Below, in pieces: positions 6,932 through 53,847 of a DNA stretch of 64,000 bases. The DNA comes from a virus. The DNA lies in the IMG/VR virus record IMGVR_UViG_3300047457_000974, positions 1 to 64,000 of that record; one strand, 5' to 3'. Numbering within the stretch: position 1 is the stretch's first letter; every line of letters starts with the position of its first letter. Made by a program: the position numbers and the translations under genes. A model generated the notes under the pieces. It made no database searches, was not told where the DNA came from, and saw only the letters and a list, made by a program, of their open reading frames with translations.

Positions 6932-7663
6932 GTGGCTCGGACGTACAAGCGTGATGCGAGTGGGCGGTTCGCCAGCGGTGGCGGCAGCTCCGGCGGCGGC
7001 CGATCGGGCGGCAAGGCCGTTGCAAAGTCCAAGCCTGCCAAGCGCTCCGCACCGAAGAGCACCAGCGCTCGCGGTCGTGCCTTGCAGAATCAACGCCGTG
7101 CCGCCGCATTGGTCAGTGCCAGCCGTGGTGGCAGGGGGCCCAGCGCTAAGGCGATCCGGTCCGTGCTGACCGCACAGCGTGCGAGGGCGTTCTATGCGGC
7201 GACCGGAGGCGGCAAGAAGCGTTCAGCGGTGAAGCCAGCAACGAAGAAGACCGCCAAGGCGACGGCGGCAGCGGTTCGGGCTAGGACAAAGGCTGGGAGT
7301 GGGGTGAAGGCGGCAGAGGCAAGGGCGAGGAGTTCGGGGCGGCCTAAGGCGAGGGTTGTGGCTAAGCCTGCAGCGCAGCGGCCGGCCCGCGAACCTAAGA
7401 CCAATTCTCAAATCCTTTCTCAGACTCGGCGGATCATCGAAAAGGCGTCAGCACGCAAGCAGGCTGCGCGGCTTTCTTATGTCGTAGCGAAAAACGAGCG
7501 TCGCATTGCGAGGGCAACTGCTGTTCGGCAGGCCATCCTGAATCCGCCTAAGCCGAAGAAGTCGCGGAAGCCTCGCGATCCGAACCACTTGACCCCAACA
7601 CAACTTGCAAACCGACGTTGGGCAGCGTCGATGAATGCGTGGAACCGTGGCATGGGCCGCTAA
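6932..7663 (+). CDS. MARTYKRD-family basic protein A
   Basis: A 243-residue, Arg/Lys/Ala-rich protein starting at GTG. Residues 1-18 (MARTYKRDASGRFASGGG) are shared with four other proteins of this window (12453, 13506, 18142, 19140). A Ser/Gly linker follows, then a module (STSARGRALQNQRRA, GPSAKAIRS, LTAQRARAFY) shared with the protein at 19140. The C-terminal ~80 residues are unique (LTPTQLANRRWAASMNAW). The strong positive charge suggests nucleic-acid binding. It lies between portal and MuF genes, so an internal virion protein is likely. I know no function for this family. Confidence 0.75.
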   Translation: MARTYKRDASGRFASGGGSSGGGRSGGKAVAKSKPAKRSAPKSTSARGRALQNQRRAAALVSASRGGRGPSAKAIRSVLTAQRARAFYAATGGGKKRSAVKPATKKTAKATAAAVRARTKAGSGVKAAEARARSSGRPKARVVAKPAAQRPAREPKTNSQILSQTRRIIEKASARKQAARLSYVVAKNERRIARATAVRQAILNPPKPKKSRKPRDPNHLTPTQLANRRWAASMNAWNRGMGR

Positions 7664-12255: not shown

Positions 12256-12456
12256 ATGGATTCACCACCTGACGATCTGGCGGCTTTCCTGCTGCTGCAT
12301 GCCGCCGTGAGCGCACGCGACGAGGAGATCACGCGCCAGGCGCTACGGCAAGTCGCGACCGAGATGCCCACCACAACCGGCCACAAGGTCGCATCGACGC
12401 TGCATCGCTCGATCAGCGGCGGCGGGCGGTTGTGGCTCAGCCGGCTGGTGGCTTAG
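12256..12456 (+). CDS. Hypothetical protein divergent from cyAbrB
   Basis: A 66-residue helical protein (MDSPPDDLAAFLLLHAAVSA at the start). It begins directly after the palindromic site and overlaps by 4 bases the end of the convergent gene at 12453. Reading further upstream in this frame gives a sequence that is only the shadow of cyAbrB, so the ATG at 12256 is chosen. No family recognised. Confidence 0.55.
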   Translation: MDSPPDDLAAFLLLHAAVSARDEEITRQALRQVATEMPTTTGHKVASTLHRSISGGGRLWLSRLVA

Positions 12457-13178
12457 GCCTTGGGCTTGCGGCGGCGGGGACGCTTGGGCTTGCCGCCGCC
12501 GCCACCGGTGTCACCAGCGGCCGGCAATGCCCTGCCGCCACTGGATCCACTGACGCGCCGACGGCCGCCGCTCCTGCTCCCGCTGATTGCACCGGCCGAG
12601 CTTGGCCCCGTGATTTCGGCAATCCCTCGCAGCCTGGCAGCATCGGCCTGGGCCAGTTGCCGCAGGGTGCCGCGCAATGTTCCAGCGACGCTGCCCGATC
12701 GTCCGCTGGAGCCACTGGAACCGCCGGAGCCATTGCCCCGTGGCGCCGACCTGGCGCTCGGCGCCTTGATCGGCTGACCGGTGATCTGTTCGATGCCTCG
12801 AATGAACCTGGCGTCTTGTTGTGCCAGCTCTCGCAGTGTTTCGCGCAACGTGTCGGCAATGCGAGGCTTCTTGCCGGCGGCTGGCGTTGTATTGACCCGC
12901 ACGGCGTTGCCAGTGGTCGTCATCGCTCCGCCGCGGCGTGCCGCTCGGGCGGCGCTCGCCGCGCTCTTGTAGGCAGCTTTGGCTGCCGTTGGCTGAGCCT
13001 TGCCCTGGAATTGCGCGGTCCTGGCGGCTTGCTCCCTGGCGTTGCGACGCTGCTCGGCGCGTGTTCCGACCTTGCCGCCACGCGGTCCCGATCGTCCGAC
13101 CTTGGCCGGGCCTCGGCCGCCACTAGAGCCTCCTCCAGTAAAGCGACCCTTGGCATCGCGGTTGTAGGTTCTGGCCAT
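12453..13178 (-). CDS. MARTYKRD-family basic protein B
   Basis: A 241-residue basic protein. Residues 1-17 (MARTYNRDAKGRFTGGG) are the family tag. The next module (GPRGGKVGTRAEQRRNAREQ, then PTAAKAAYK) is shared with the proteins at 13506 and 18142. The C-terminal half contains a repeated ~30-residue helix (TLRETLRELAQQDARFIRGI and TLRGTLRQLAQADAARLRGI, each followed by ITG) separated by Gly/Ser linkers, then a Lys/Arg end. It is leftward, in tandem with two other basic genes. Function unknown; nucleic-acid or capsid association is inference. Confidence 0.75.
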   Translation of the reverse strand: MARTYNRDAKGRFTGGGSSGGRGPAKVGRSGPRGGKVGTRAEQRRNAREQAARTAQFQGKAQPTAAKAAYKSAASAARAARRGGAMTTTGNAVRVNTTPAAGKKPRIADTLRETLRELAQQDARFIRGIEQITGQPIKAPSARSAPRGNGSGGSSGSSGRSGSVAGTLRGTLRQLAQADAARLRGIAEITGPSSAGAISGSRSGGRRRVSGSSGGRALPAAGDTGGGGGKPKRPRRRKPKA

Positions 13179-13505: not shown

Positions 13506-14021
13506 TCAGCCCTTCCCGCCACCCATCCGGGTAGCGCGACGTGCAAACCGTGCGGCACTTCTAGCCGCCTTATACGCAGCCTTGGCATTGGTCGGCGCAG
13601 CTTTCGACCGGAAACGCTGAGTGCGCTCAGCCTGAGCCTTTGCGTTACGGCGCTGCTGGGTCTTGGTGCCTGATTTGCCGCCACGTGGGCCGCGTCGCCT
13701 GTCCATGGCCGCTGCGGCAGAACGTGCTGCCGCCTTAGCCGTCACTGCGGCGGCACGACGAGCGGCCTTGCTGCCCTTGCCTGCCGCACCATCACGCTCT
13801 GCCTGCGCATTCCGATTCTGAGCCTTGATGTATCGCTCTCGCTGCGGGTTGCGCTTGCCCTTGCCGCTGAGCATTGAGCTGCTGACCTCACGATTCATCG
13901 CCTGCTTCCTGGCTGCCACCGTGCCGCCCGATTTCCTCCCGCCGCTCCTGCCGCCGCCGGATCCACCGCCACCGCCTCCGGCAAAACGGCCGTTGGAGTC
14001 TCGTTTGTAGGTGCGAGCCAT
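13506..14021 (-). CDS. MARTYKRD-family basic protein C
   Basis: A 171-residue basic protein starting at the ATG at 14021. The tag MARTYKRDSNGRFAGGGGGG begins it; sequence upstream in the same frame is not family-like and was excluded. A middle part rich in Arg/Ala/Lys is followed by the module GPRGGKSGTKTQQRRNAKAQ and PTNAKAAYK shared with the proteins at 12453 and 18142. Here that module is C-terminal, whereas in the other two it follows the tag directly, so modules have been shuffled. Function unknown. Confidence 0.75.
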   Translation of the reverse strand: MARTYKRDSNGRFAGGGGGGSGGGRSGGRKSGGTVAARKQAMNREVSSSMLSGKGKRNPQRERYIKAQNRNAQAERDGAAGKGSKAARRAAAVTAKAAARSAAAAMDRRRGPRGGKSGTKTQQRRNAKAQAERTQRFRSKAAPTNAKAAYKAARSAARFARRATRMGGGKG

Positions 14022-14051
14022 GATCAAGGCAGGGGAAGCTAGCCCAGCTTT

Positions 14052-14066
14052 CCGGCAACCTATGCC
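14052..14066 (+). promoter_or_regulatory. CCGGCAACCTA leader motif, copy 2
   Basis: CCGGCAACCTATGCC, 16 bases before the ATG at 14082. It restarts rightward transcription units after the leftward islet. Confidence 0.45.
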
Positions 14067-14081
14067 AGATTCCCTGCCACC

Positions 14082-14591
14082 ATGCCGGCGCCAATTCCGA
14101 CGCTCAACCCACTGTGGCGGCCCAATGGCAGCAGCGCCCGCGACGATCGCGAGCTGATCAGGGGCTATGCCATGTGGCCGGTCTCGGCCTACAACCTGAC
14201 GCAACTGACAACGGTGCTCAACCGCGTTGCCGATACCTCCGCAGCAACCGTCAAGCAGGTGCAGGCCTGGATTGATGAGATCGAGAACCTGGAGCAGGAC
14301 TGGTCGGACAAGGTGGCTGATGGCACCGCTCATCTCGGCAACGTGCAGCGCTACCGCGGCCCGGCGCCTAGTACCACGCTGACCCGTGATGATCTGCGCA
14401 AACGCGCAGACGTGCTGGAGTGGGATACAAGCCTGCTGCAGGTGGAGTACGAAAGCGGCGGCAGGCCTGATGCCACCGCTGGCGGCACGATCTCGAACCG
14501 GATTGCGCAGCTCAAAAGCCGGATCCTGGAGACGATTGGCATCAAGGCCAGCGATCGCTCCGGCGGGCAGGCAACACTGGTGCGCAGCTGA
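14082..14591 (+). CDS. Hypothetical neck/connector protein
   Basis: A 169-residue protein, helical in the middle (NLTQLTTVLNRVADTSAATV, WIDEIENLEQDW). It is the first gene of the neck and tail cluster; its stop overlaps the next start (TGATGG). Position suggests a head-tail connector or joining protein, but no conserved family signature is visible. The start follows CCCTGCCACC. Confidence 0.6.
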   Translation: MPAPIPTLNPLWRPNGSSARDDRELIRGYAMWPVSAYNLTQLTTVLNRVADTSAATVKQVQAWIDEIENLEQDWSDKVADGTAHLGNVQRYRGPAPSTTLTRDDLRKRADVLEWDTSLLQVEYESGGRPDATAGGTISNRIAQLKSRILETIGIKASDRSGGQATLVRS

Positions 14592-18141: not shown

Positions 18142-19119
18142 ATGGCCCGGACCTACAAGCGAGACAGTCGTGGGCGGTTCACCTCTGGTGGCGGAGGTGG
18201 CGGAGGTGGCGGATCTGGTCGCAGCCGTAAGACACCAAAAACCAGTATCGATGGACGACGCGGGCCTCGTGGTGGCAAATCAGGTACCAGGGCGGAGCAA
18301 GCACGAGCGAAACGTGAGCAGCAGGCCAGAAGCCAGCAATTCAGAAGCAAGGCTACGCCAACAACAGCAAAGCTGGCTTACAAGAAAACACAAGGCGAAG
18401 CACGCAAAGCAGCCAAGGCTGCCACGAGCAGGGCAAGCCAGCGTCGCTCAAATCCAGCGGCAAAACGTGCTCGGGACATGGCAAACAGGACTGGTACGGC
18501 CAAAGGCAGGTTTTACGAGGATGGGCAGACTCGGACAACAATGAGTTTGGCTCAACTGCGATCTGCCGTTCGTGGTTACGCCAGATCACAAGGAGTTAAT
18601 AACAGGCAAGACTTCTTAGAGCAGGTATCGCTAGCCGCTAACTTGACGCGAACAGGCGCCAGGGGCATGGCTGAAGGACGAATGCCAAAAACTCGCGGTG
18701 AGTGGGAGCAAATCTATAAAACTTTGGTTCGCGTTCCTGATTACACCAGAGGGCAAAAGCAACGTCGTGGAATGGTCAACGGTATTGACATTCACAGAGA
18801 TTTCAGGCCATGGGCTGTATTCGGCCTGAATCCCAAAACAGCAACCGCACAGGATGTCAGAAACAGGTTCCGCAAGCTAGCGATCAAGGTTCATCCTGAC
18901 ACTGGCGGCAGCGCCAGGGATTTCGAGCGGCTGAAGCAGATGCGCGATTCGATGTTGGCATTCAGGCCAGCATCAAAGACAGCCGGCAGCAGCAGGCGCC
19001 GCAGCAAACAGGCTGCATCGGCATCACCTGCTGCAACCGGGCCGATCAATAGCCAGCGATTGTTGCCGCCATCACGCACCACTAAGCCGCCGCGCAGACG
19101 TCGCAAGCCGGCAAGCTGA
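18142..19119 (+). CDS. MARTYKRD-family protein D with C-terminal J domain
   Basis: A 325-residue protein. Residues 1-22 are the tag (MARTYKRDSRGRFTSGGGGG). The module GPRGGKSGTRAEQARAKREQ and PTTAKLAYK follows, as in the proteins at 12453 and 13506. A unique middle part (about 110-215) precedes a DnaJ-like segment at about 221-275: AVFGLNPKTATAQDVRNRF, then RKLAIKVHPDTGG with the HPD tripeptide after a basic helix. J domains stimulate Hsp70 ATPase, so recruitment of host DnaK to virion assembly or to injected DNA is possible. The 3' half is more AT-rich than the 5' half. A 23-base start region is shared with the next gene. Confidence 0.8.
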   Translation: MARTYKRDSRGRFTSGGGGGGGGGSGRSRKTPKTSIDGRRGPRGGKSGTRAEQARAKREQQARSQQFRSKATPTTAKLAYKKTQGEARKAAKAATSRASQRRSNPAAKRARDMANRTGTAKGRFYEDGQTRTTMSLAQLRSAVRGYARSQGVNNRQDFLEQVSLAANLTRTGARGMAEGRMPKTRGEWEQIYKTLVRVPDYTRGQKQRRGMVNGIDIHRDFRPWAVFGLNPKTATAQDVRNRFRKLAIKVHPDTGGSARDFERLKQMRDSMLAFRPASKTAGSSRRRSKQAASASPAATGPINSQRLLPPSRTTKPPRRRRKPAS

Positions 19120-19139: not shown

Positions 19140-20111
19140 GTGGCCCGAACCTACAAGCGAGACAGCCGCGGACGGTTCGCGGGCGGGGGAGGATCCAGCG
19201 GCGGCGGCAAGAAGGCATCAGGCGGGAAGCGGAGCGGTCCGAAGACCACCAGCGCCAGGGGAAGGGCACTGGCCAATCAGCGACGGGCAGCGGTGCAGGT
19301 TCGAGCGAACCGCGGCGGCACGGGGCCGAGTGCGAGAGCTGTTCGATCGATGCTCACGGCTCAGCGAGCACGGGCGTTCTATGAATCGACCGGGACCGGC
19401 ACGAAGCGATCGGCCATGCGGGCGGTAAGCAGCACGGCAAAGGCCAAGGCCGCACGGGCAGAGACGCGGGCGAAGCGGCAGGCAGTGAGGGAGAATGCGG
19501 CGAAGCGACCGAAGGCGCAGGCAGTGGCAAAAACGACATCACGGCGGTTGAGCGGTATGGGCCGAGCGCCTGCGACGAGGCTGCCAGCCGCAAACTCTGA
19601 CGCATACAAATACAACAAGTCCGGCTTCATTGCCACCCCACAGGAAAGAGCACGGATGCGCGGCAGGGATCGCGCTCGTGAAAAGAACGCTGCTCTCGCG
19701 CAGCAACAAGCAGCAGGAGAACTTAGGGCGGAACGTCGAGCTGCAAGAAAGATGACATCAGATCGCACAGAGATTATGAGCGTGCTTCGCCACTCGCCAA
19801 CGTTCAACGCGGCCGAAAGATTTATGCAGCGTTTTGCTAAGCGAGTTGACGAAAACTTTAGACAGGGCGTTCAGCTTGAACGCCAAAAGTCGGCATTGAC
19901 GGCCAAGGCGATCAAGATGCAGCAAAAAGCAGCAGAGCGAAAAGCTCAGGGCAAAAAGATTACTCAGACCATGGAATCAAACTTTCAGCAGCTCAGGCAG
20001 CAGATTGCCAAAATTGACAGAAGTTTGACAACGCGACGTAGGGCGATGGATGTTTTCCGCAGCCAGTCTCGGCGCGTGACGATCAACACCAGAGAGCGCA
20101 GCAGGTACTGA
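19140..20111 (+). CDS. MARTYKRD-family basic protein E
   Basis: A 323-residue protein starting at GTG with tag MARTYKRDSRGRFAGGGGSS. Residues ~35-85 repeat the module of the protein at 6932 (TTSARGRALANQRRA, GPSARAVRS, LTAQRARAFYESTG). The C-terminal ~140 residues are charged and probably coiled coil (QLERQKSALTAKAIKMQQKA, NFQQLRQQIAKIDRSLTTRR). The upstream 15 bases and the start are nearly the same as for the gene at 18142, which suggests gene duplication followed by exchange of the C-terminal part. Position before the tail terminator and tape measure genes supports a virion role. Confidence 0.75.
   Translation: MARTYKRDSRGRFAGGGGSSGGGKKASGGKRSGPKTTSARGRALANQRRAAVQVRANRGGTGPSARAVRSMLTAQRARAFYESTGTGTKRSAMRAVSSTAKAKAARAETRAKRQAVRENAAKRPKAQAVAKTTSRRLSGMGRAPATRLPAANSDAYKYNKSGFIATPQERARMRGRDRAREKNAALAQQQAAGELRAERRAARKMTSDRTEIMSVLRHSPTFNAAERFMQRFAKRVDENFRQGVQLERQKSALTAKAIKMQQKAAERKAQGKKITQTMESNFQQLRQQIAKIDRSLTTRRRAMDVFRSQSRRVTINTRERSRY

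Positions 20112-35481: not shown

Positions 35482-35485
<4 letters not shown>
35132..35485 (+). CDS. BppU-like tail fibre adaptor 2
   Basis: A 117-residue protein with the layout of the gene at 32272: an N-terminal beta part, [33 protein letters not shown], then [13 protein letters not shown]. It is coupled by ATGA to the collagen-like fibre gene. It probably anchors that fibre to the baseplate. Confidence 0.6.
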
Positions 35486-37004
<1,519 letters not shown>

Positions 37005-37005
<1 letters not shown>

Positions 37006-47768: not shown

Positions 47769-47839
47769 CAGGGCTTGGCCGCAGCGGCAGCTTGCTGAGG
47801 TGGGAATCAAGCCCTGGTTGCAGCACCAGGGCTTTTTTT
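47769..47839 (+). ncRNA. Candidate small RNA or attenuator
   Basis: CAGGGCTTG at 47769-47777 can pair with CAAGCCCTG at 47808-47816, and the same segment can instead form the terminator stem with ACCAGGGCT. These are mutually exclusive structures as in attenuators. No rightward gene follows, so a short rightward transcript starting near the operator at 47722 is a possible product. Confidence 0.4.
47810..47839 (+). terminator. Strong rho-independent terminator
   Basis: AGCCCTGGT and ACCAGGGCT form a perfect 9-bp stem with a six-base loop, followed by a run of T. It is oriented rightward although both flanking genes are leftward. Confidence 0.85.
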
Positions 47840-48442: not shown

Positions 48443-48628
48443 TCAGGCTGCGAGCCAGGCGCGGGCCTCGGTTTCGGTCATTGCGTCGGTGACCGGCCAG
48501 CTGTCCACCTGCAGGCAGGTGACGCGCTCCCATGAGTAGCCGAACCAGGCGCCGGCGATCTGATCGCGGCGAATGGTGCGGCCAGAGGGCTTGAGTGGAT
48601 TGGTGGAGATGACGCGGGCGGCGGTCAT
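48443..48628 (-). CDS. Small hypothetical protein, cassette 1
   Basis: A 61-residue protein (MTAARVISTNPLKPSGRTIR, AWFGYSWERVTCLQVDSWPV). It is the most downstream of six consecutive small leftward genes whose gaps share one repeated element. No family recognised. Confidence 0.65.
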   Translation of the reverse strand: MTAARVISTNPLKPSGRTIRRDQIAGAWFGYSWERVTCLQVDSWPVTDAMTETEARAWLAA

Positions 48629-48694
48629 GGCGGTAGCGGTGTGGTGGTGTGGTGGTTGGCCGGGATTGGTTGCGGCTCCCGGCGGGCCGCGCCA
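48629..48694 (-). repeat. Repeated intergenic element, copy 1
   Basis: Forward strand: a GTGGTGTGGTGGTTGGCC stretch, then CCGGGATTGG and GGCTCCCGGCGGGCCG. The CCGGGA/TCCCGG arms can pair. It fills the whole gap between two small genes. Related copies: 48947, 49498, 49770, 50079. Confidence 0.8.
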
Positions 48695-48946
48695 TCAGGC
48701 GTCCCGCTCCAGCTCGTCCAGCTGGGCGGCGATGGCGGCCTGTTCCGCCTCGATCGCGTCGAGTGCCGCGGTGTTCTCGGCGGAGAGCGCCTGCAACGCT
48801 GCCAGTTGGCCGCTGATGGAGTGGACCGGCACCGGCCGCGCCAGCAGCGCATCGAGCCGGGCGCTCGTCTCGGTCCAGGCCGCCTCCATGGCGTCGATCT
48901 CCGCCATCAGCGCGTCGATGTCGGTGGTGGGGGTGGCGGTGTCCAT
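48695..48946 (-). CDS. Small coiled-coil protein, cassette 2
   Basis: An 83-residue acidic, all-helical protein (MDTATPTTDIDALMAEIDAM, LAALQALSAENTAALDAIEA). It probably forms a coiled-coil oligomer. Flanked by copies 1 and 2 of the intergenic element. No family recognised. Confidence 0.7.
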   Translation of the reverse strand: MDTATPTTDIDALMAEIDAMEAAWTETSARLDALLARPVPVHSISGQLAALQALSAENTAALDAIEAEQAAIAAQLDELERDA

Positions 48947-49017
48947 GGCGGATGGCGGTGGTGGTGGTGTGGTGGTTGACCGGGATTGGAGACGGCTCCC
49001 GGCGGGCCGTGGGCGGG
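48947..49017 (-). repeat. Repeated intergenic element, copy 2
   Basis: Contains GTGGTGTGGTGGTTGACC, CCGGGATTGGAGACGG and CTCCCGGCGGGCCGTG. It fills the gap between the genes at 48695 and 49018. Confidence 0.8.
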
Positions 49018-49176
49018 TCAGCGTTGCTGCACCCGGTACACGCGGAAACTACCGCGCTGCAACTGTTGCCAGGCCTCGATGGCCTCGGCCTCGGTGTCGT
49101 GCTCGCTAACCAGCACCTCGGTTCCAGCATCGACGACACGCCAGGGCAGCGAGTAGGTGAGGGGGGTGTGAGCCAT
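49018..49176 (-). CDS. Small hypothetical protein, cassette 3
   Basis: A 52-residue protein (MAHTPLTYSLPWRVVDAGTE, HDTEAEAIEAWQQLQRGSFR) with a compact alpha/beta pattern. Its leader holds a hairpin and a promoter-like repeat. No family recognised. Confidence 0.65.
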   Translation of the reverse strand: MAHTPLTYSLPWRVVDAGTEVLVSEHDTEAEAIEAWQQLQRGSFRVYRVQQR

Positions 49177-49200
49177 GGATTTTCCAGGGTGGTGTGGTGG

Positions 49201-49216
49201 TCGGGATCGCTCCCGA
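49201..49216. repeat. Short palindrome in leader (degenerate intergenic element)
   Basis: TCGGGA and TCCCGA around TCGC, preceded by GGTGGTGTGGTGG. It looks like a shortened relative of the five intergenic elements. Confidence 0.5.
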
Positions 49217-49223
49217 TGCACAT

Positions 49224-49244
49224 ACATTAGCCCGTAGCGTGACA
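49224..49244 (-). promoter_or_regulatory. 21-bp promoter-like direct repeat, copy 1
   Basis: On the leftward strand the repeat contains ACGCTACGGGCTAATGT, ending in a -10-like TAATGT. A copy without mismatch lies at 50373, and the core ACGCTACGGG recurs upstream of the gene at 55023. It precedes the leftward start at 49176. Confidence 0.5.
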
Positions 49245-49269
49245 ACCGGCAGCCACTGCCAGGGCCAGT

Positions 49270-49497
49270 TCACACATCGTCACGCTTCCGGCGCTTCTGG
49301 GCATTGACGACGCGGCGCAGTCGATCGGCGCGGCCCTCGGGGGTCAGGGCCAACCAGCAGGCGCGGCACAGCGGCGTGTGGCGCCCACGGTGGGGCTTGC
49401 CGCATGTGACGCATAGGAGCGGTTCAGCTGGCGGCAGCTCCCCCCGCTCGCGGGCTCGCTGGCGCCGCTTGCGCTCGGCGGGTGTGTCGGGACTCAC
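49270..49497 (-). CDS. Small zinc-finger-like protein, cassette 4
   Basis: A 75-residue basic protein with CVTCGKPHRGRHTPLCRACW, four cysteines arranged as a treble-clef or zinc-finger-like site, between Lys/Arg-rich ends. The GTG at 49497 is the likely start. A DNA- or RNA-binding role is inferred. Confidence 0.6.
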   Translation of the reverse strand: MSPDTPAERKRRQRARERGELPPAEPLLCVTCGKPHRGRHTPLCRACWLALTPEGRADRLRRVVNAQKRRKRDDV

Positions 49498-49556
49498 GAA
49501 GATGGCGTGGTGGGAATGGGTGCCGGGATGGGCTCCCGGCGGGCCGTGGGGATGGG
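49498..49556 (-). repeat. Repeated intergenic element, copy 3
   Basis: Shorter copy: GTGGTGGGAATGGG, CCGGGATGGG and CTCCCGGCGGGCCGTG, filling the gap between genes at 49270 and 49557. Confidence 0.75.
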
Positions 49557-49769
49557 TCAGGCAGCGGCGTCGCGGACGACTGCAACGCGCAGCGTGCCGC
49601 CGCACAAGCGGTTCGCCAGCGCCCGGAGAGCGTTCGCGTCGGTGCGGGTGCGGAATGTATCGGCGCTCGTGATGCGGCAGAGCTCAGGCAGGCGGTTGGG
49701 GTTCAGGCGGACGCCGAACGTCCAGCGGCTGCCGTCGTGACACTCGACTCGGTAGGTGGTGTTGGCCAT
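49557..49769 (-). CDS. Small hypothetical protein, cassette 5
   Basis: A 70-residue protein (MANTTYRVECHDGSRWTFGV, LCRITSADTFRTRTDANALR). Compact alpha/beta pattern. No family recognised. Confidence 0.65.
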   Translation of the reverse strand: MANTTYRVECHDGSRWTFGVRLNPNRLPELCRITSADTFRTRTDANALRALANRLCGGTLRVAVVRDAAA

Positions 49770-49829
49770 GGGTCCTGTGTGGTGTGGGTGGTGGTGTGCC
49801 GGGATGGGCTCCCGGCGGGCCGTGATGAG
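49770..49829 (-). repeat. Repeated intergenic element, copy 4
   Basis: GTGTGGTGTGGGTGGTGGTG, CCGGGATGGG and CTCCCGGCGGGCCGTG between genes at 49557 and 49830. Most like copy 3. Confidence 0.75.
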
Positions 49830-50078
49830 TCAGAACGAGTGGTGGTCGTGGATGGTGTTGTCTGCAGGGCGCAAGCCTTTGCCGCGCAGATCGCTGTAGC
49901 GCTGGCGCATGATGCCGATCCAGTTGCAGCCAGAAGACAGGAGCTGCCAGTTGCCGGCGTCGTCTTTGACGTAACGGCGGCAGTAGGCCTGATGGCCGCC
50001 GCAAGGCTGAAACTCGTAGCGCGCTTGGCCATTGACGGTTTCAAGCGCGAAGTAGGCGGGGAAGGTGGCGGTGGTCAT
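49830..50078 (-). CDS. Small hypothetical protein, cassette 6
   Basis: An 82-residue protein (MTTATFPAYFALETVNGQAR, CNWIGIMRQRYSDLRGKGLR). More AT-rich than its neighbours. No family recognised. Confidence 0.65.
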   Translation of the reverse strand: MTTATFPAYFALETVNGQARYEFQPCGGHQAYCRRYVKDDAGNWQLLSSGCNWIGIMRQRYSDLRGKGLRPADNTIHDHHSF

Positions 50079-50149
50079 GGCCGGTGGTGTGGTGGTGGTG
50101 TGGTGGTTGGCCGGGATTGGAGACGGCTCCCGGCGGGCCGTGGAAGCGA
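50079..50149 (-). repeat. Repeated intergenic element, copy 5
   Basis: GTGGTGTGGTGGTTGGCC, CCGGGATTGGAGACGG and CTCCCGGCGGGCCGTG between genes at 49830 and 50150. Most like copy 2. Confidence 0.8.
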
Positions 50150-50347
50150 TCAGGGCCCGTTGCCCTCCAGGCAATCCTCCAGAGAGGCGCAGGCGCTGAC
50201 CAGTTCGGCGATCAGCGGGTGTGCGTCCTCGATGACGGCCCATTGCGCATCGCTGTAGGCGTCGCGGATCGCCTGCATCGCATTCGCGACATCGGCGCTG
50301 GCTTCAACAACGTGAGCCAGATGGATCAGGGAATTGGCGAGGCTCAT
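50150..50347 (-). CDS. Small hypothetical helical protein
   Basis: A 65-residue helical protein (MSLANSLIHLAHVVEASADV, AIRDAYSDAQWAVIEDAHPL). ATG 50347 is chosen because of its CCACCACCC leader. It is the first gene of the cassette series. No family recognised. Confidence 0.6.
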   Translation of the reverse strand: MSLANSLIHLAHVVEASADVANAMQAIRDAYSDAQWAVIEDAHPLIAELVSACASLEDCLEGNGP

Positions 50348-50372: not shown

Positions 50373-50393
50373 ACATTAGCCCGTAGCGTGACA
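50373..50393 (-). promoter_or_regulatory. 21-bp promoter-like direct repeat, copy 2
   Basis: Same 21 bases as at 49224, with leftward -10-like TAATGT. It lies 26 bases upstream of the start at 50347. Confidence 0.5.
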
Positions 50394-51200: not shown

Positions 51201-51871
51201 CACTTCACCTCCCCCGCAGGCAGCGGCATGGGCGTGGGGCTTAAGTCAGCCTTGTTTTCCAGTTCCTGCAAGCGCTTCAGTGCGGCGCGGATGGTGTCAA
51301 ACCGTTTGATTTTCTTATGGCCTGTTACCGGCATGAGTAGAACCACAGTTCGCTCCAGCTCCTTCAACGCCAACTCCGCCACATCCCTCGCAGCCATCGG
51401 CGCGGGCGCAGCTTCATCGACCCGCTCGCCAATGACCTGCGCTGCCCAGGTCAACATCCCGGCGTCGGTTGGTTGGCCCGCATCTGCAGCCTGGCAGGCC
51501 TGTTCGGACAGCCAGGCGATCAGCGAGCCAACCGCCTCGATGGATGGGCCAGGGCCGACCATTTTCGTGGCGTCAGGAGAATGGTGGCCCCAGCGGGCCA
51601 GGACGGCACGGGCGAACTTAAAGGCGTCCAACGATTCGCCGGGCTCCCAGCCATCTTCGCGGAACCACATCGCCAGCAGGTCTTCATCGCTAGGCTCCCC
51701 AACGACGGAGGCCGGTTCCCTGCCCTCGGGCACAGCCGGTCCATCTGCCTCAGCGGCCAGGGCAGCGCGGGCGCGGTCAAGCAGAGCTTTGTAGGTGCCA
51801 GAGGCAGCCTCTCCTGTTGATGCCAGCCCATCGGCCATCTCCTCACACAGCGCTCTCCAATCAGTACTCAT
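51200..51871 (-). CDS. Hypothetical protein with repeated helical segments
   Basis: A 223-residue protein (MSTDWRALCEEMADGLASTG, LLAMWFREDGWEPGESLDAF). The start DWRALCEEMADGL and the following helical pattern are common in early proteins of cyanobacterial phages and prophages, function unknown. It overlaps the end of the gene at 51861. Confidence 0.6.
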   Translation of the reverse strand: MSTDWRALCEEMADGLASTGEAASGTYKALLDRARAALAAEADGPAVPEGREPASVVGEPSDEDLLAMWFREDGWEPGESLDAFKFARAVLARWGHHSPDATKMVGPGPSIEAVGSLIAWLSEQACQAADAGQPTDAGMLTWAAQVIGERVDEAAPAPMAARDVAELALKELERTVVLLMPVTGHKKIKRFDTIRAALKRLQELENKADLSPTPMPLPAGEVK

Positions 51872-52040: not shown

Positions 52041-52254
52041 CTCGCATCTGCTGTAGCAGCCGCTCAGCGGCCTCCAGCACCCACGGCAGCTCCTCGGGAT
52101 CCAGCTCGATCTCCTGATCTTCCTGCTGCAGGCGGATGAAGAAACCGCCGGCTCGATCGCCGGCCAGTTGCACCTTGACGGCCTTGTAGCTCAGGGGATC
52201 GTCCGTGGCCGAATGCACGGCGATGTCCGTGATGGTGGTGCGATGCTCAGCCAT
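52030..52254 (-). CDS. Small hypothetical protein after the beta clamp gene
   Basis: A 74-residue acidic protein (YKAVKVQLAGDRAGGFFIRL, LDPEELPWVLEAAERLLQQM). The start overlaps the dnaN stop by 8 bases. No family recognised. Confidence 0.6.
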   Translation of the reverse strand: MAEHRTTITDIAVHSATDDPLSYKAVKVQLAGDRAGGFFIRLQQEDQEIELDPEELPWVLEAAERLLQQMRDAS

Positions 52255-53362
52255 TGCGCACCTGCACCGGCATCACCAGGTACTGGAAGCCCGAATCGTC
52301 CTCCACCGGCTCCAGCACGACCGGTGCGGTGGCTGCGTTGGCCTGCAGGACAACCTGATCGGCGCCGATCGCCTTCAGCCCCTCCAGCAGGTAGCGCACG
52401 TTGAACGCAATCGTTTCGGCCTCGCCAGTGATCACCGCAGCCAGCGACTCGGACCCGCGGCCCAGTTCCTGTGCATCGGCGCGGACGGTCACCTGGTTCC
52501 GGTCGGGGTCAATGGTCAGCTTCACCACGTTGTTGTGCGGATCAGCCAGTACCGCGACCCGATCCAATGCCGCCAGCAGCGTCCGGCGGTTGATCACGAT
52601 GCTGCGGCTGAAGCCACCGGGGATCAACTGCCGGTAGTTGGGATAGGTGCCCTCCAGGATCCTGGTGGTGAGCAGCCTGTCGCCGCTGATCAGCACCGCC
52701 TGGCCCTTGTCGGCGAACAGCTGCAGGCTGCCGCCGTTGCCGCCCAGCAGACGCTCCAGCTCTCGCAGCGACCGGGCGGGGATCGTCAGCTTCAGATCAC
52801 CGCCGCTGCTGGAGACGGTCAGCACCGCCAGGCGGTGGCCATCGGTGGCGGCACACTCCAGACCATCGGCACTGAGCTGCAGATGCACACCAGTGAGCAG
52901 CTGCTTCGACTCGTCGCTGCTGCTGGCGAACAGGGTGGAGCGCAGCCCCGCCAGCAGGGCAGCCGCATCGATGGTGATCGGCGCGCCGGTCTGCTGCAGC
53001 GGCAGGTCGGGATAGTCGCTGGCCGGCATGCCCCGCAGCTCGTAGCTGCCGGACAGGCTGGTGAGCGTCGCCGTATCGTCACTGGCCGTCAGTGTCACCG
53101 GCGCAGCATCCGGCAGGCGCGACACGATGTCCCCCAGCAGACGGGCCGGCAGGGTGATGCTGCCGCTGGTTTGCACCGCGGCGGCGATGCTGGTCTGGAT
53201 GCCGAGTGACAGATCGAAGCCCGTCAGGCTCAGCCGGCCGGTGGCGGCATCGGCGGTGAGCAGCACGTTGGCCAGCACCGGATGGGTGGGGCGGCTGGAG
53301 ACGGCACGGCTGACGATCTGAAGGCTGGCGCTGAGTTCGGCCTGGGAGGTGGTGAGTTGCAT
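52247..53362 (-). CDS. dnaN: DNA polymerase III beta sliding clamp
   Basis: A 371-residue protein of full bacterial clamp length with three repeats. Signatures are VSRAVSSRPTHPVLANVLLT, DYPDLPLQQTG, AATDGHRLAVL, EGTYPNYRQLIP and the C-terminal YLVMPVQVRNG. It encircles DNA and tethers polymerases. Most phages borrow the host clamp, so an own copy is notable. ATG 53362 (MQLTTSQAELSASLQIVSRA) overlaps the ssb stop. Confidence 0.93.
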   Translation of the reverse strand: MQLTTSQAELSASLQIVSRAVSSRPTHPVLANVLLTADAATGRLSLTGFDLSLGIQTSIAAAVQTSGSITLPARLLGDIVSRLPDAAPVTLTASDDTATLTSLSGSYELRGMPASDYPDLPLQQTGAPITIDAAALLAGLRSTLFASSSDESKQLLTGVHLQLSADGLECAATDGHRLAVLTVSSSGGDLKLTIPARSLRELERLLGGNGGSLQLFADKGQAVLISGDRLLTTRILEGTYPNYRQLIPGGFSRSIVINRRTLLAALDRVAVLADPHNNVVKLTIDPDRNQVTVRADAQELGRGSESLAAVITGEAETIAFNVRYLLEGLKAIGADQVVLQANAATAPVVLEPVEDDSGFQYLVMPVQVRNG

Positions 53363-53847
53363 CAGAACGGCACCTCGCTGGCATCGAAACCATTGGCTGC
53401 AGGCGCCGGGCTGGCCTGCCATACCGGCGCTGCTGCGGTTGCGTTACCGGAGCCGGCTGGAGCGGCAGGAGCCGGGGCCTGGCCTGCAGGCTGGCCGGCC
53501 TGGCGCAGCACGCGCCACGTCTCGGCTTTGATCACGAGCGCCACCTTTGGCTCACCATCACGGGTGGTGTACTGCTCGCTTTTGACGCGGCCGATCACCT
53601 CCACCAGGTCGCCGCGGTGGGCGTTGTCGCCGAAGGCTTGAGCCTCTTCGTTCCAGAGCTCAACCTTGAACCAGTCGGTTTTGTCCTTCTCGTCACGCTT
53701 GGCATCAGGCCAGCTGATCGCCATGCGGGCATTGCAGACGGAGCTGCCGGACTCAAAAAATCGCAGCTCGGGCTCGGCGCCGAGCCGCCCGACAAACCGG
53801 TGCGACTCGGACCGCGCCACTGTGGCGAGGATTTCAATGGCTTTCAT
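53362..53847 (-). CDS. ssb: Single-stranded DNA-binding protein
   Basis: A 161-residue SSB. The OB fold spans residues 1-110 (FVGRLGAEPELRFFESGSSV, WFKVELWNEEAQAFGDN, LVEVIGRVKSEQYT). A flexible Gly/Ala/Pro linker ends in DASEVPF, an acidic tip like that of bacterial SSBs which binds partner proteins. ATGA overlap with the RecT-like gene. Confidence 0.9.
   Translation of the reverse strand: MKAIEILATVARSESHRFVGRLGAEPELRFFESGSSVCNARMAISWPDAKRDEKDKTDWFKVELWNEEAQAFGDNAHRGDLVEVIGRVKSEQYTTRDGEPKVALVIKAETWRVLRQAGQPAGQAPAPAAPAGSGNATAAAPVWQASPAPAANGFDASEVPF

Follow-up and report, generated by a model that had tools for sequence, protein, structure and literature searches.

A short element recurs between the small genes of many unrelated phages. 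Sequence comparison makes it almost certain that the element is an H-type pseudoknot of 22-30 nt, with stem 1 pairing nucleotides 1-3 with 13-15 and stem 2 pairing GCCGGGA with TCCCGGC. We propose, with a probability of about 0.5, that it is an mRNA module, i.e. a compact pseudoknot between two genes of one transcript that would act in cis on the downstream cistron. That its main role is translation initiation or insulation is the best-placed single reading, at a little under even odds.

The element in the window

The window analysed here is a stretch of 64,000 bases from the 66,208-base IMG/VR virus record IMGVR_UViG_3300047457_000974. Across approximately 44-60 kb the genes lie on the minus strand, with ThyX-like and beta-clamp-like ORFs among them (names by sequence reading). 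The beta-clamp-like protein is encoded at 52247-53422 (-), and the cultured carrier S-H1 is likewise annotated with DNA polymerase III beta subunit, SSB and ThyX. In the phage collection, the stretch 40-60 kb has a single DNA-level relative, a helicase gene (76%) from Synechococcus phage S-LBS1; the covariance model found no element in this phage.

Nearly the same element occupies five gaps, as the earlier note had recognised. An exact core, GGCCCGCCGGGAGCC N1-10 ATCCCGG, is present in all five on the minus strand, whereas 0.00 copies were expected (100 shuffles). The covariance model matched the same five copies and revealed no sixth in the rest of the 66,208-base record. Read along the minus strand, which is the coding one, a stop codon is followed by the element, then by a CA-rich leader and the next start codon. 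What was described before as a GTGG-rich part is the antisense view of this leader. The small genes at the elements may be early genes. The features are, in the direction of the coding strand:

50373..50393 (-), promoter-like repeat TGTCACGCTACGGGCTAATGT, copy 2, 21 bp, exact
50150..50347 (-), ORF, small gene upstream of E1; a homologue lies beside a different neighbour in locus L029
50110..50139 (-), pseudoknot element E1, GGC.CC.GCCGGGA.GCC.GTCTCCAA.TCCCGGC; gap 50079-50149 (71 bases), exact core 50111-50139
49830..50078 (-), ORF, small gene between E1 and E2
49798..49821 (-), pseudoknot element E2, GGC.CC.GCCGGGA.GCC.CA.TCCCGGC; gap 49770-49829 (60 bases), exact core 49799-49821
49557..49769 (-), ORF, small gene between E2 and E3
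49522..49545 (-), pseudoknot element E3, same as E2; gap 49498-49556 (59 bases), exact core 49523-49545
49270..49497 (-), ORF, small gene after E3 with CxxC motifs and a GTG start; homologues in L188 and L189 have other neighbours
49224..49244 (-), promoter-like repeat TGTCACGCTACGGGCTAATGT, copy 1, 21 bp, exact
49201..49216 (-), simple hairpin TCGGGA-GCGA-TCCCGA just downstream of copy 1
49018..49176 (-), ORF, small gene between the promoter-like repeat and E4
48979..49008 (-), pseudoknot element E4, last pair G-T (TCCCGGT); gap 48947-49017 (71 bases), exact core 48980-49008
48695..48946 (-), ORF, small gene between E4 and E5; with E5 one block homologous to L188 16561-16858
48659..48688 (-), pseudoknot element E5, L3 = GCAACCAA; gap 48629-48694 (66 bases), exact core 48660-48688
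48443..48628 (-), ORF, small gene after E5; in L189 directly behind the promoter-like repeat

The 21-mer TGTCACGCTACGGGCTAATGT occurs in two exact copies (0 expected), each of which precedes a small gene. We infer its promoter-like function from the motif TAATGT only, and it does not appear in the output of the signal scan that reported terminator-like stems. Those stems lie in opposite orientation at 47809-47834 (+) and 51288-51308 (+), and their count is no different from that in shuffles. The hairpin at 49201-49216 falls within 49185-49216, formerly taken for a degenerate copy of the element; a weaker hairpin does exist there, but it is a simple one, possibly located at a 5' end. The stretch comprising promoter-like repeat and hairpin (49252-49188) shares 85% identity with L189 11911-11977.

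Among the structural genes, five ORFs have an N-terminal MARTYxRDxxGRFxxGGG stretch in common and basic, glycine/serine-rich bodies: 6932-7663 (+), 12453-13178 (-), 13506-14333 (-), 18142-19119 (+) and 19140-20111 (+). In 13506-14333 (-) the stretch is internal to the listed ORF. Another ORF, 35482-37005 (+), contains a long collagen-like repeat and probably encodes a tail or fibre protein.

Pseudoknot structure and covariation

The element is built as follows: stem 1 has three pairs, L1 is usually CC, stem 2 has six to seven pairs, and L3 comprises at least 2 nt and ends in A. Stem 2 corresponds to the foldable arms noticed earlier, and its hairpin is present in the predicted folds of all five gaps; the element is no simple hairpin, however, but contains a second, crossing helix that had been overlooked. 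The folding tool draws no crossing helices.

A search of IMG/VR with the exact pattern GGCCCGCCGGGAGCC N0-12 TCCCGG gave at least 118 stretches, whereas a control pattern with the same stem/loop plan but a swapped stem 2 gave one. The matches listed represent 112 distinct contexts from source contigs of 32-70% GC. Among them, two positions left free in the pattern are nearly invariant: L3 ends in A in 107 of 112, and the first base of stem 2 is opposed by C or T in 110 of 112. None of the matches listed has an L3 shorter than 2 nt, although the pattern permitted 0-1.

For covariation, viral contigs were scanned with one stem fixed and the other left free. When stem 1 was free (nt 1 not G), 23 of 32 distinct hits formed three Watson-Crick pairs, compared with an expectation of 1/64, and the compensated variants CGC/GCG, AGC/GCT and CCG/CGG were seen. 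The other nine do not form three such pairs; one of them has a wobble pair. Since many of these hits are related, identical 25-mers were collapsed, and the 14 rows kept provide the fairer count. They show two-sided changes at all three stem 1 pairs and a covariation score of 0.148 versus 0.061 after shuffling, a value reached by only one of 500 shuffles. Stem 2 behaves alike: with its three middle pairs free, 11 of 12 hits are fully paired by way of two compensated variants, and with its two basal pairs free, 13 of 16 are fully paired in four variants. A further scan demanded G at nt 1 and excluded it at nt 2. None of its four hits is paired in the register set by the pattern; three can pair one base further upstream when loop 1 is one nucleotide longer (3 nt), an observation made by eye and post hoc. 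A first loop-1 base other than C is rare (6 stretches). Counts from descriptors that require pairing, as well as the alignment A2 and the model R1 built from such instances, were excluded as evidence for pairing.

In pseudoknot geometry, an L1 this short can span 6-7 pairs of A-form RNA. The element very probably acts as RNA, since compensatory changes maintain both helices and its 2-nt loop over 6-7 pairs agrees with that form. Most compensated variants retain an SD-like GGAG at the junction of stem 2 and stem 1, although pairing alone would not require it; the exceptions are L139 (GGAC), L054 (CCGCG), L079 (AGAG) and L117 (GCAG).

Distribution among phages and cellular genomes

The carriers are many unrelated phages, with 32-70% GC among the matches listed, and include cultured ones. 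Synechococcus phage S-H1 has three model hits, two of which are fully paired by descriptor (CGC.CA.GCCGGGA.GCG; GGC.CC.GCCGGA.GCC). In Microbacterium phage Zooman the element starts directly behind the annotated stop of gene 124, and in Rhodococcus phage NiceHouse it lies 7 nt past gene 208 with the compensated basal stem GGTGGGA/TCCCACC, a copy that model R1 misses. These three cultured carriers came from a phage-wide blast with 31-36 nt queries, which otherwise returned mostly chance matches. Of 46 records, 41 match, with 1 to 7 copies each, most of these records having been chosen as carriers.

In 84,980 bacterial and archaeal genomes the exact pattern was detected in 18 contigs, including Cyanobium, Microcystis, Thermosipho, Paludifilum, Thioalkalivibrio and clostridial or desulfo- MAGs. 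In a set of 60 genomes centred on a Cyanobium genome, which is itself counted, model R1 has matches in 4. One copy is located between nusG and rplK (L11) in a single gammaproteobacterial MAG (L180 1197-1223); among 60 genomes of the family (itself included), one other match was found, which is weak and covers the first 45 bases only. A chromosomal regulatory element was rejected in view of the mere 18 contigs in 84,980 genomes and of the nusG-rplK copy not being kept in relatives.

Position between stop and start codons

In the IMG/VR matches listed, the typical site is behind a stop codon and ahead of a start. Distances were measured for 164 of 197 instances, namely those flanked upstream by an ORF of 50 aa or more and on the other side by an ORF as well. 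The distance from stop codon to element has a mode of 7 nt; that from element to start codon has a mode of 25 nt, 22-25 nt being commonest (about 24). In GC-rich loci the interquartile range is 6-9 nt to the stop versus 23-29 nt to the start. Loci above 60% GC have a CA-rich leader as in the window, with an SD-like sequence between element and start in 7 of 81 cases; in loci below 52% GC such a sequence occurs in 27 of 34.

Neighbouring genes and possible cassette exchange

The genes that follow the element are diverse. Their 179 proteins (median about 84 aa) fall into 164 clusters, which bears out the idea of a constant spacer between unrelated genes. Family scans covered 106 of these clusters. 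The commonest family is that of helicases (4/106), and matches were also obtained to the anti-CRISPR AcrF31 (2/106), to a restriction-alleviation protein (1/106) and to Pfam SSB (2/106), so the element is not SSB-specific. With 164 clusters among 179 proteins and helicases accounting for at most 4 of 106, a tie to one gene type or a riboswitch-like regulon was rejected.

Gene order is less well kept at elements than elsewhere. Synteny per junction averages 0.078 where an element is present (CI 0.033-0.138, 92 junctions) compared with 0.237 (CI 0.200-0.275, 372 junctions) at other same-strand junctions of the same loci. Pairs with more than 93% identity and contig-end pairs were dropped; before the flank-length cut the test comprised 244 elements and 1,075 control junctions. 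Two of the 18 listings in which both flanks are syntenic, L147/L131 and L206/L218, have an extra gene at the element. Moreover, the array of the window differs from those of L188 and L189, both of which share its backbone (beta clamp 83% and 70% identical), and window 48950-48646 (gene 48695-48946 plus E5) forms one block with L188 16561-16858, where the neighbours differ.

At homologous gene edges the element is kept in 66 of 138 upstream-gene pairs and 64 of 127 downstream-gene pairs; control gene edges have it in 19 of 656 (upstream) and 41 of 651 (downstream). Since it is absent from about half of the homologous-gene pairs compared, the element is not essential for any gene. Among related phages, the same genes in the same order without the spacer are not the rule: the partner has the element in 17 of 18 syntenic listings, the exception being L084/L165.

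These comparisons support gene exchange at element junctions, short of proof that the element drives recombination, because the controls depend on mechanical ORFs and the pairs are not independent. The earlier proposal that genes are gained by recombination between spacers is supported in part: for the gain by the synteny values and the two added genes, but not for recombination at the spacer itself.

Proposed function and alternatives

In the mechanism that we favour, the pseudoknot would fold in the slot on the mRNA that separates a ribosome at termination from one at initiation, and would act in cis on the downstream cistron. Footprint sizes of terminating and initiating ribosomes fit this slot. 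Most likely it would be a translation-initiation module, either as a landing site for the 30S subunit or S1 protein or by insulation from the upstream cistron, and the unstructured leader behind it would work together with the pseudoknot. Being indifferent to the following gene, the element could travel with exchangeable small genes and mark their edges. There is a precedent in a study on tisB mRNA, where ribosome standby requires a pseudoknot and an H-type pseudoknot is bound by the host S1 protein at nanomolar affinity (PMC7708055). On the other hand, S1 protein tolerates diverse pseudoknots, which leaves the strict element sequence unexplained. Likewise, the element is placed no less tightly relative to the stop codon than to the start, although an element that did nothing but enhance initiation would have no need of the former.

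The tight stop-codon distance and the intercistronic site would also suit a boundary for mRNA decay or processing, in which the polycistronic phage RNA would be cleaved within the C/A-rich spacer, leaving the downstream 5' end or the upstream 3' end shielded from exonucleases by the pseudoknot. Conservation of the element sequence independently of the genes agrees with such a boundary, as does the simple hairpin at the presumed 5' end behind the TGTCACGCTACGGGCTAATGT repeat. A plain GC hairpin would suffice for this purpose, however, and the strict crossing helix, the CC loop and the terminal A demand more. We regard a decay boundary as unlikely, even if it ranks second to translation initiation or insulation.

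Third comes an operator of a regulon, in which a host or phage RNA-binding protein on the pseudoknot would switch many small genes together. The sequence is indeed conserved strongly beyond pairing, and copies within one phage are often the same variant (three listed copies in L157, two in L128). For T4, gp32 regulates at one gene and RegA at many. The gene 32 pseudoknot provides a precedent (PMC3014915). Yet the carriers are unrelated and have many hosts, so that a common phage protein is improbable, and variants are mixed within one locus in L011, L012 and L166. Overall, we consider regulator binding improbable.

Last in our ranking is a cassette or recombination site at the DNA level, i.e. 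a hot spot or integrase target for the gain and loss of small genes. The lower synteny at elements (0.078 vs 0.237), the gene gains in L147/L131 and L206/L218 and the gene-plus-element block common to window 48950-48646 and L188 16561-16858 are in accord with such a site. Nevertheless, covariation of paired stems and the A-form fit favour RNA, the element is kept about equally on both sides (66/138 and 64/127) rather than as a fixed gene-plus-site unit, and junctions of accessory genes shuffle anyway, the controls being drawn from mechanical ORFs. A DNA-level site is thus very improbable.

An intrinsic terminator or a stop-codon recoding signal was rejected despite the GC-rich stem and the resemblance of a pseudoknot about 7 nt past a stop to readthrough and frameshift signals, as no T run follows the stem, the terminator scan lists none at the elements, and the frame of the next start relative to the upstream stop is at chance level (57, 54 and 53 of 164).

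Comparison with known systems

The element is a structured leader RNA, but one that is portable, repeated and gene-independent, and it has no Rfam entry. Rfam 15, with STAXI among its families, gave no element match in window 46-53 kb at E<=5, in 10 loci at the gathering score, or in 6 loci at E<=10. No description of the element was found in a literature search, which covered a 2017 survey, reportedly of 224 candidate RNAs, only via Rfam.

Integron attC cassettes have GTTRRRY-type core sites and an integrase; the element consensus, read by eye, lacks GTT. Several known systems share single traits with the element. The STAXI motif (Rfam RF01728), a tandem pseudoknot in a 2010 survey of candidate RNAs, is likewise a repeated one near DNA-handling and antirestriction genes (PMC2864571); its pseudoknots, however, stand in tandem two to three times and have UUCG loops, whereas our element occurs in single copies separated by genes. 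The gene 32 leader of T4, T2 and RB69 also contains an H-type pseudoknot in phage mRNA upstream of the ribosome binding site (PMC3014915), but it belongs to one gene of T4-type phages and serves autogenous control by gp32, while the element comes in multiple copies, is tied to no particular gene and occurs in phages that are unrelated. The tisB standby site of E. coli likewise combines an H-type pseudoknot with a single-stranded region and binds S1 protein and 30S. It serves one chromosomal toxin gene, lies far upstream of a sequestered RBS and has other stems and loops than the element (PMC7708055).

The earlier note had compared the spacers to the start-associated sequences (SAS) of cluster K mycobacteriophages. 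SAS and ESAS are indeed conserved repeats of short length that precede some of the non-structural genes; the SAS is the 13 bp GGGATAGGAGCCC a few nucleotides from the start, the inverted repeats of the ESAS have little hairpin support according to the authors, and both are known in one cluster (PMC3203893). Our element, in contrast, is a covarying pseudoknot of 22-30 nt at about 24 nt from the start. Its sense core reads GGGAGCC..ATCCC, and GGGATAGGAGCCC does not occur in sense orientation near the start; in our own reading, the SAS itself contains an SD-like AGGAG. The proposed likeness does not hold up, since length, place and structure differ and the 13-mer is resembled on the antisense strand only.

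Implications

Tentatively, the element could be a universal, gene-independent RNA adaptor, the same pseudoknot standing between interchangeable small genes in phages of many bacterial phyla, by which a new gene would be translated or protected at once. If so, its target would be a factor common to all hosts, for example the 30S ribosome, with GGAG held in the fold of most variants, and gene cassettes would also become exchangeable. A covariation-backed RNA of only 22-30 nt recurs across phages of 32-70% GC. Through it, the expression and exchange of the many small accessory genes of phages become simple to test, and it offers a marker for such genes. Should it recruit ribosomes in a wide range of hosts, it could also serve as a portable part for gene expression.
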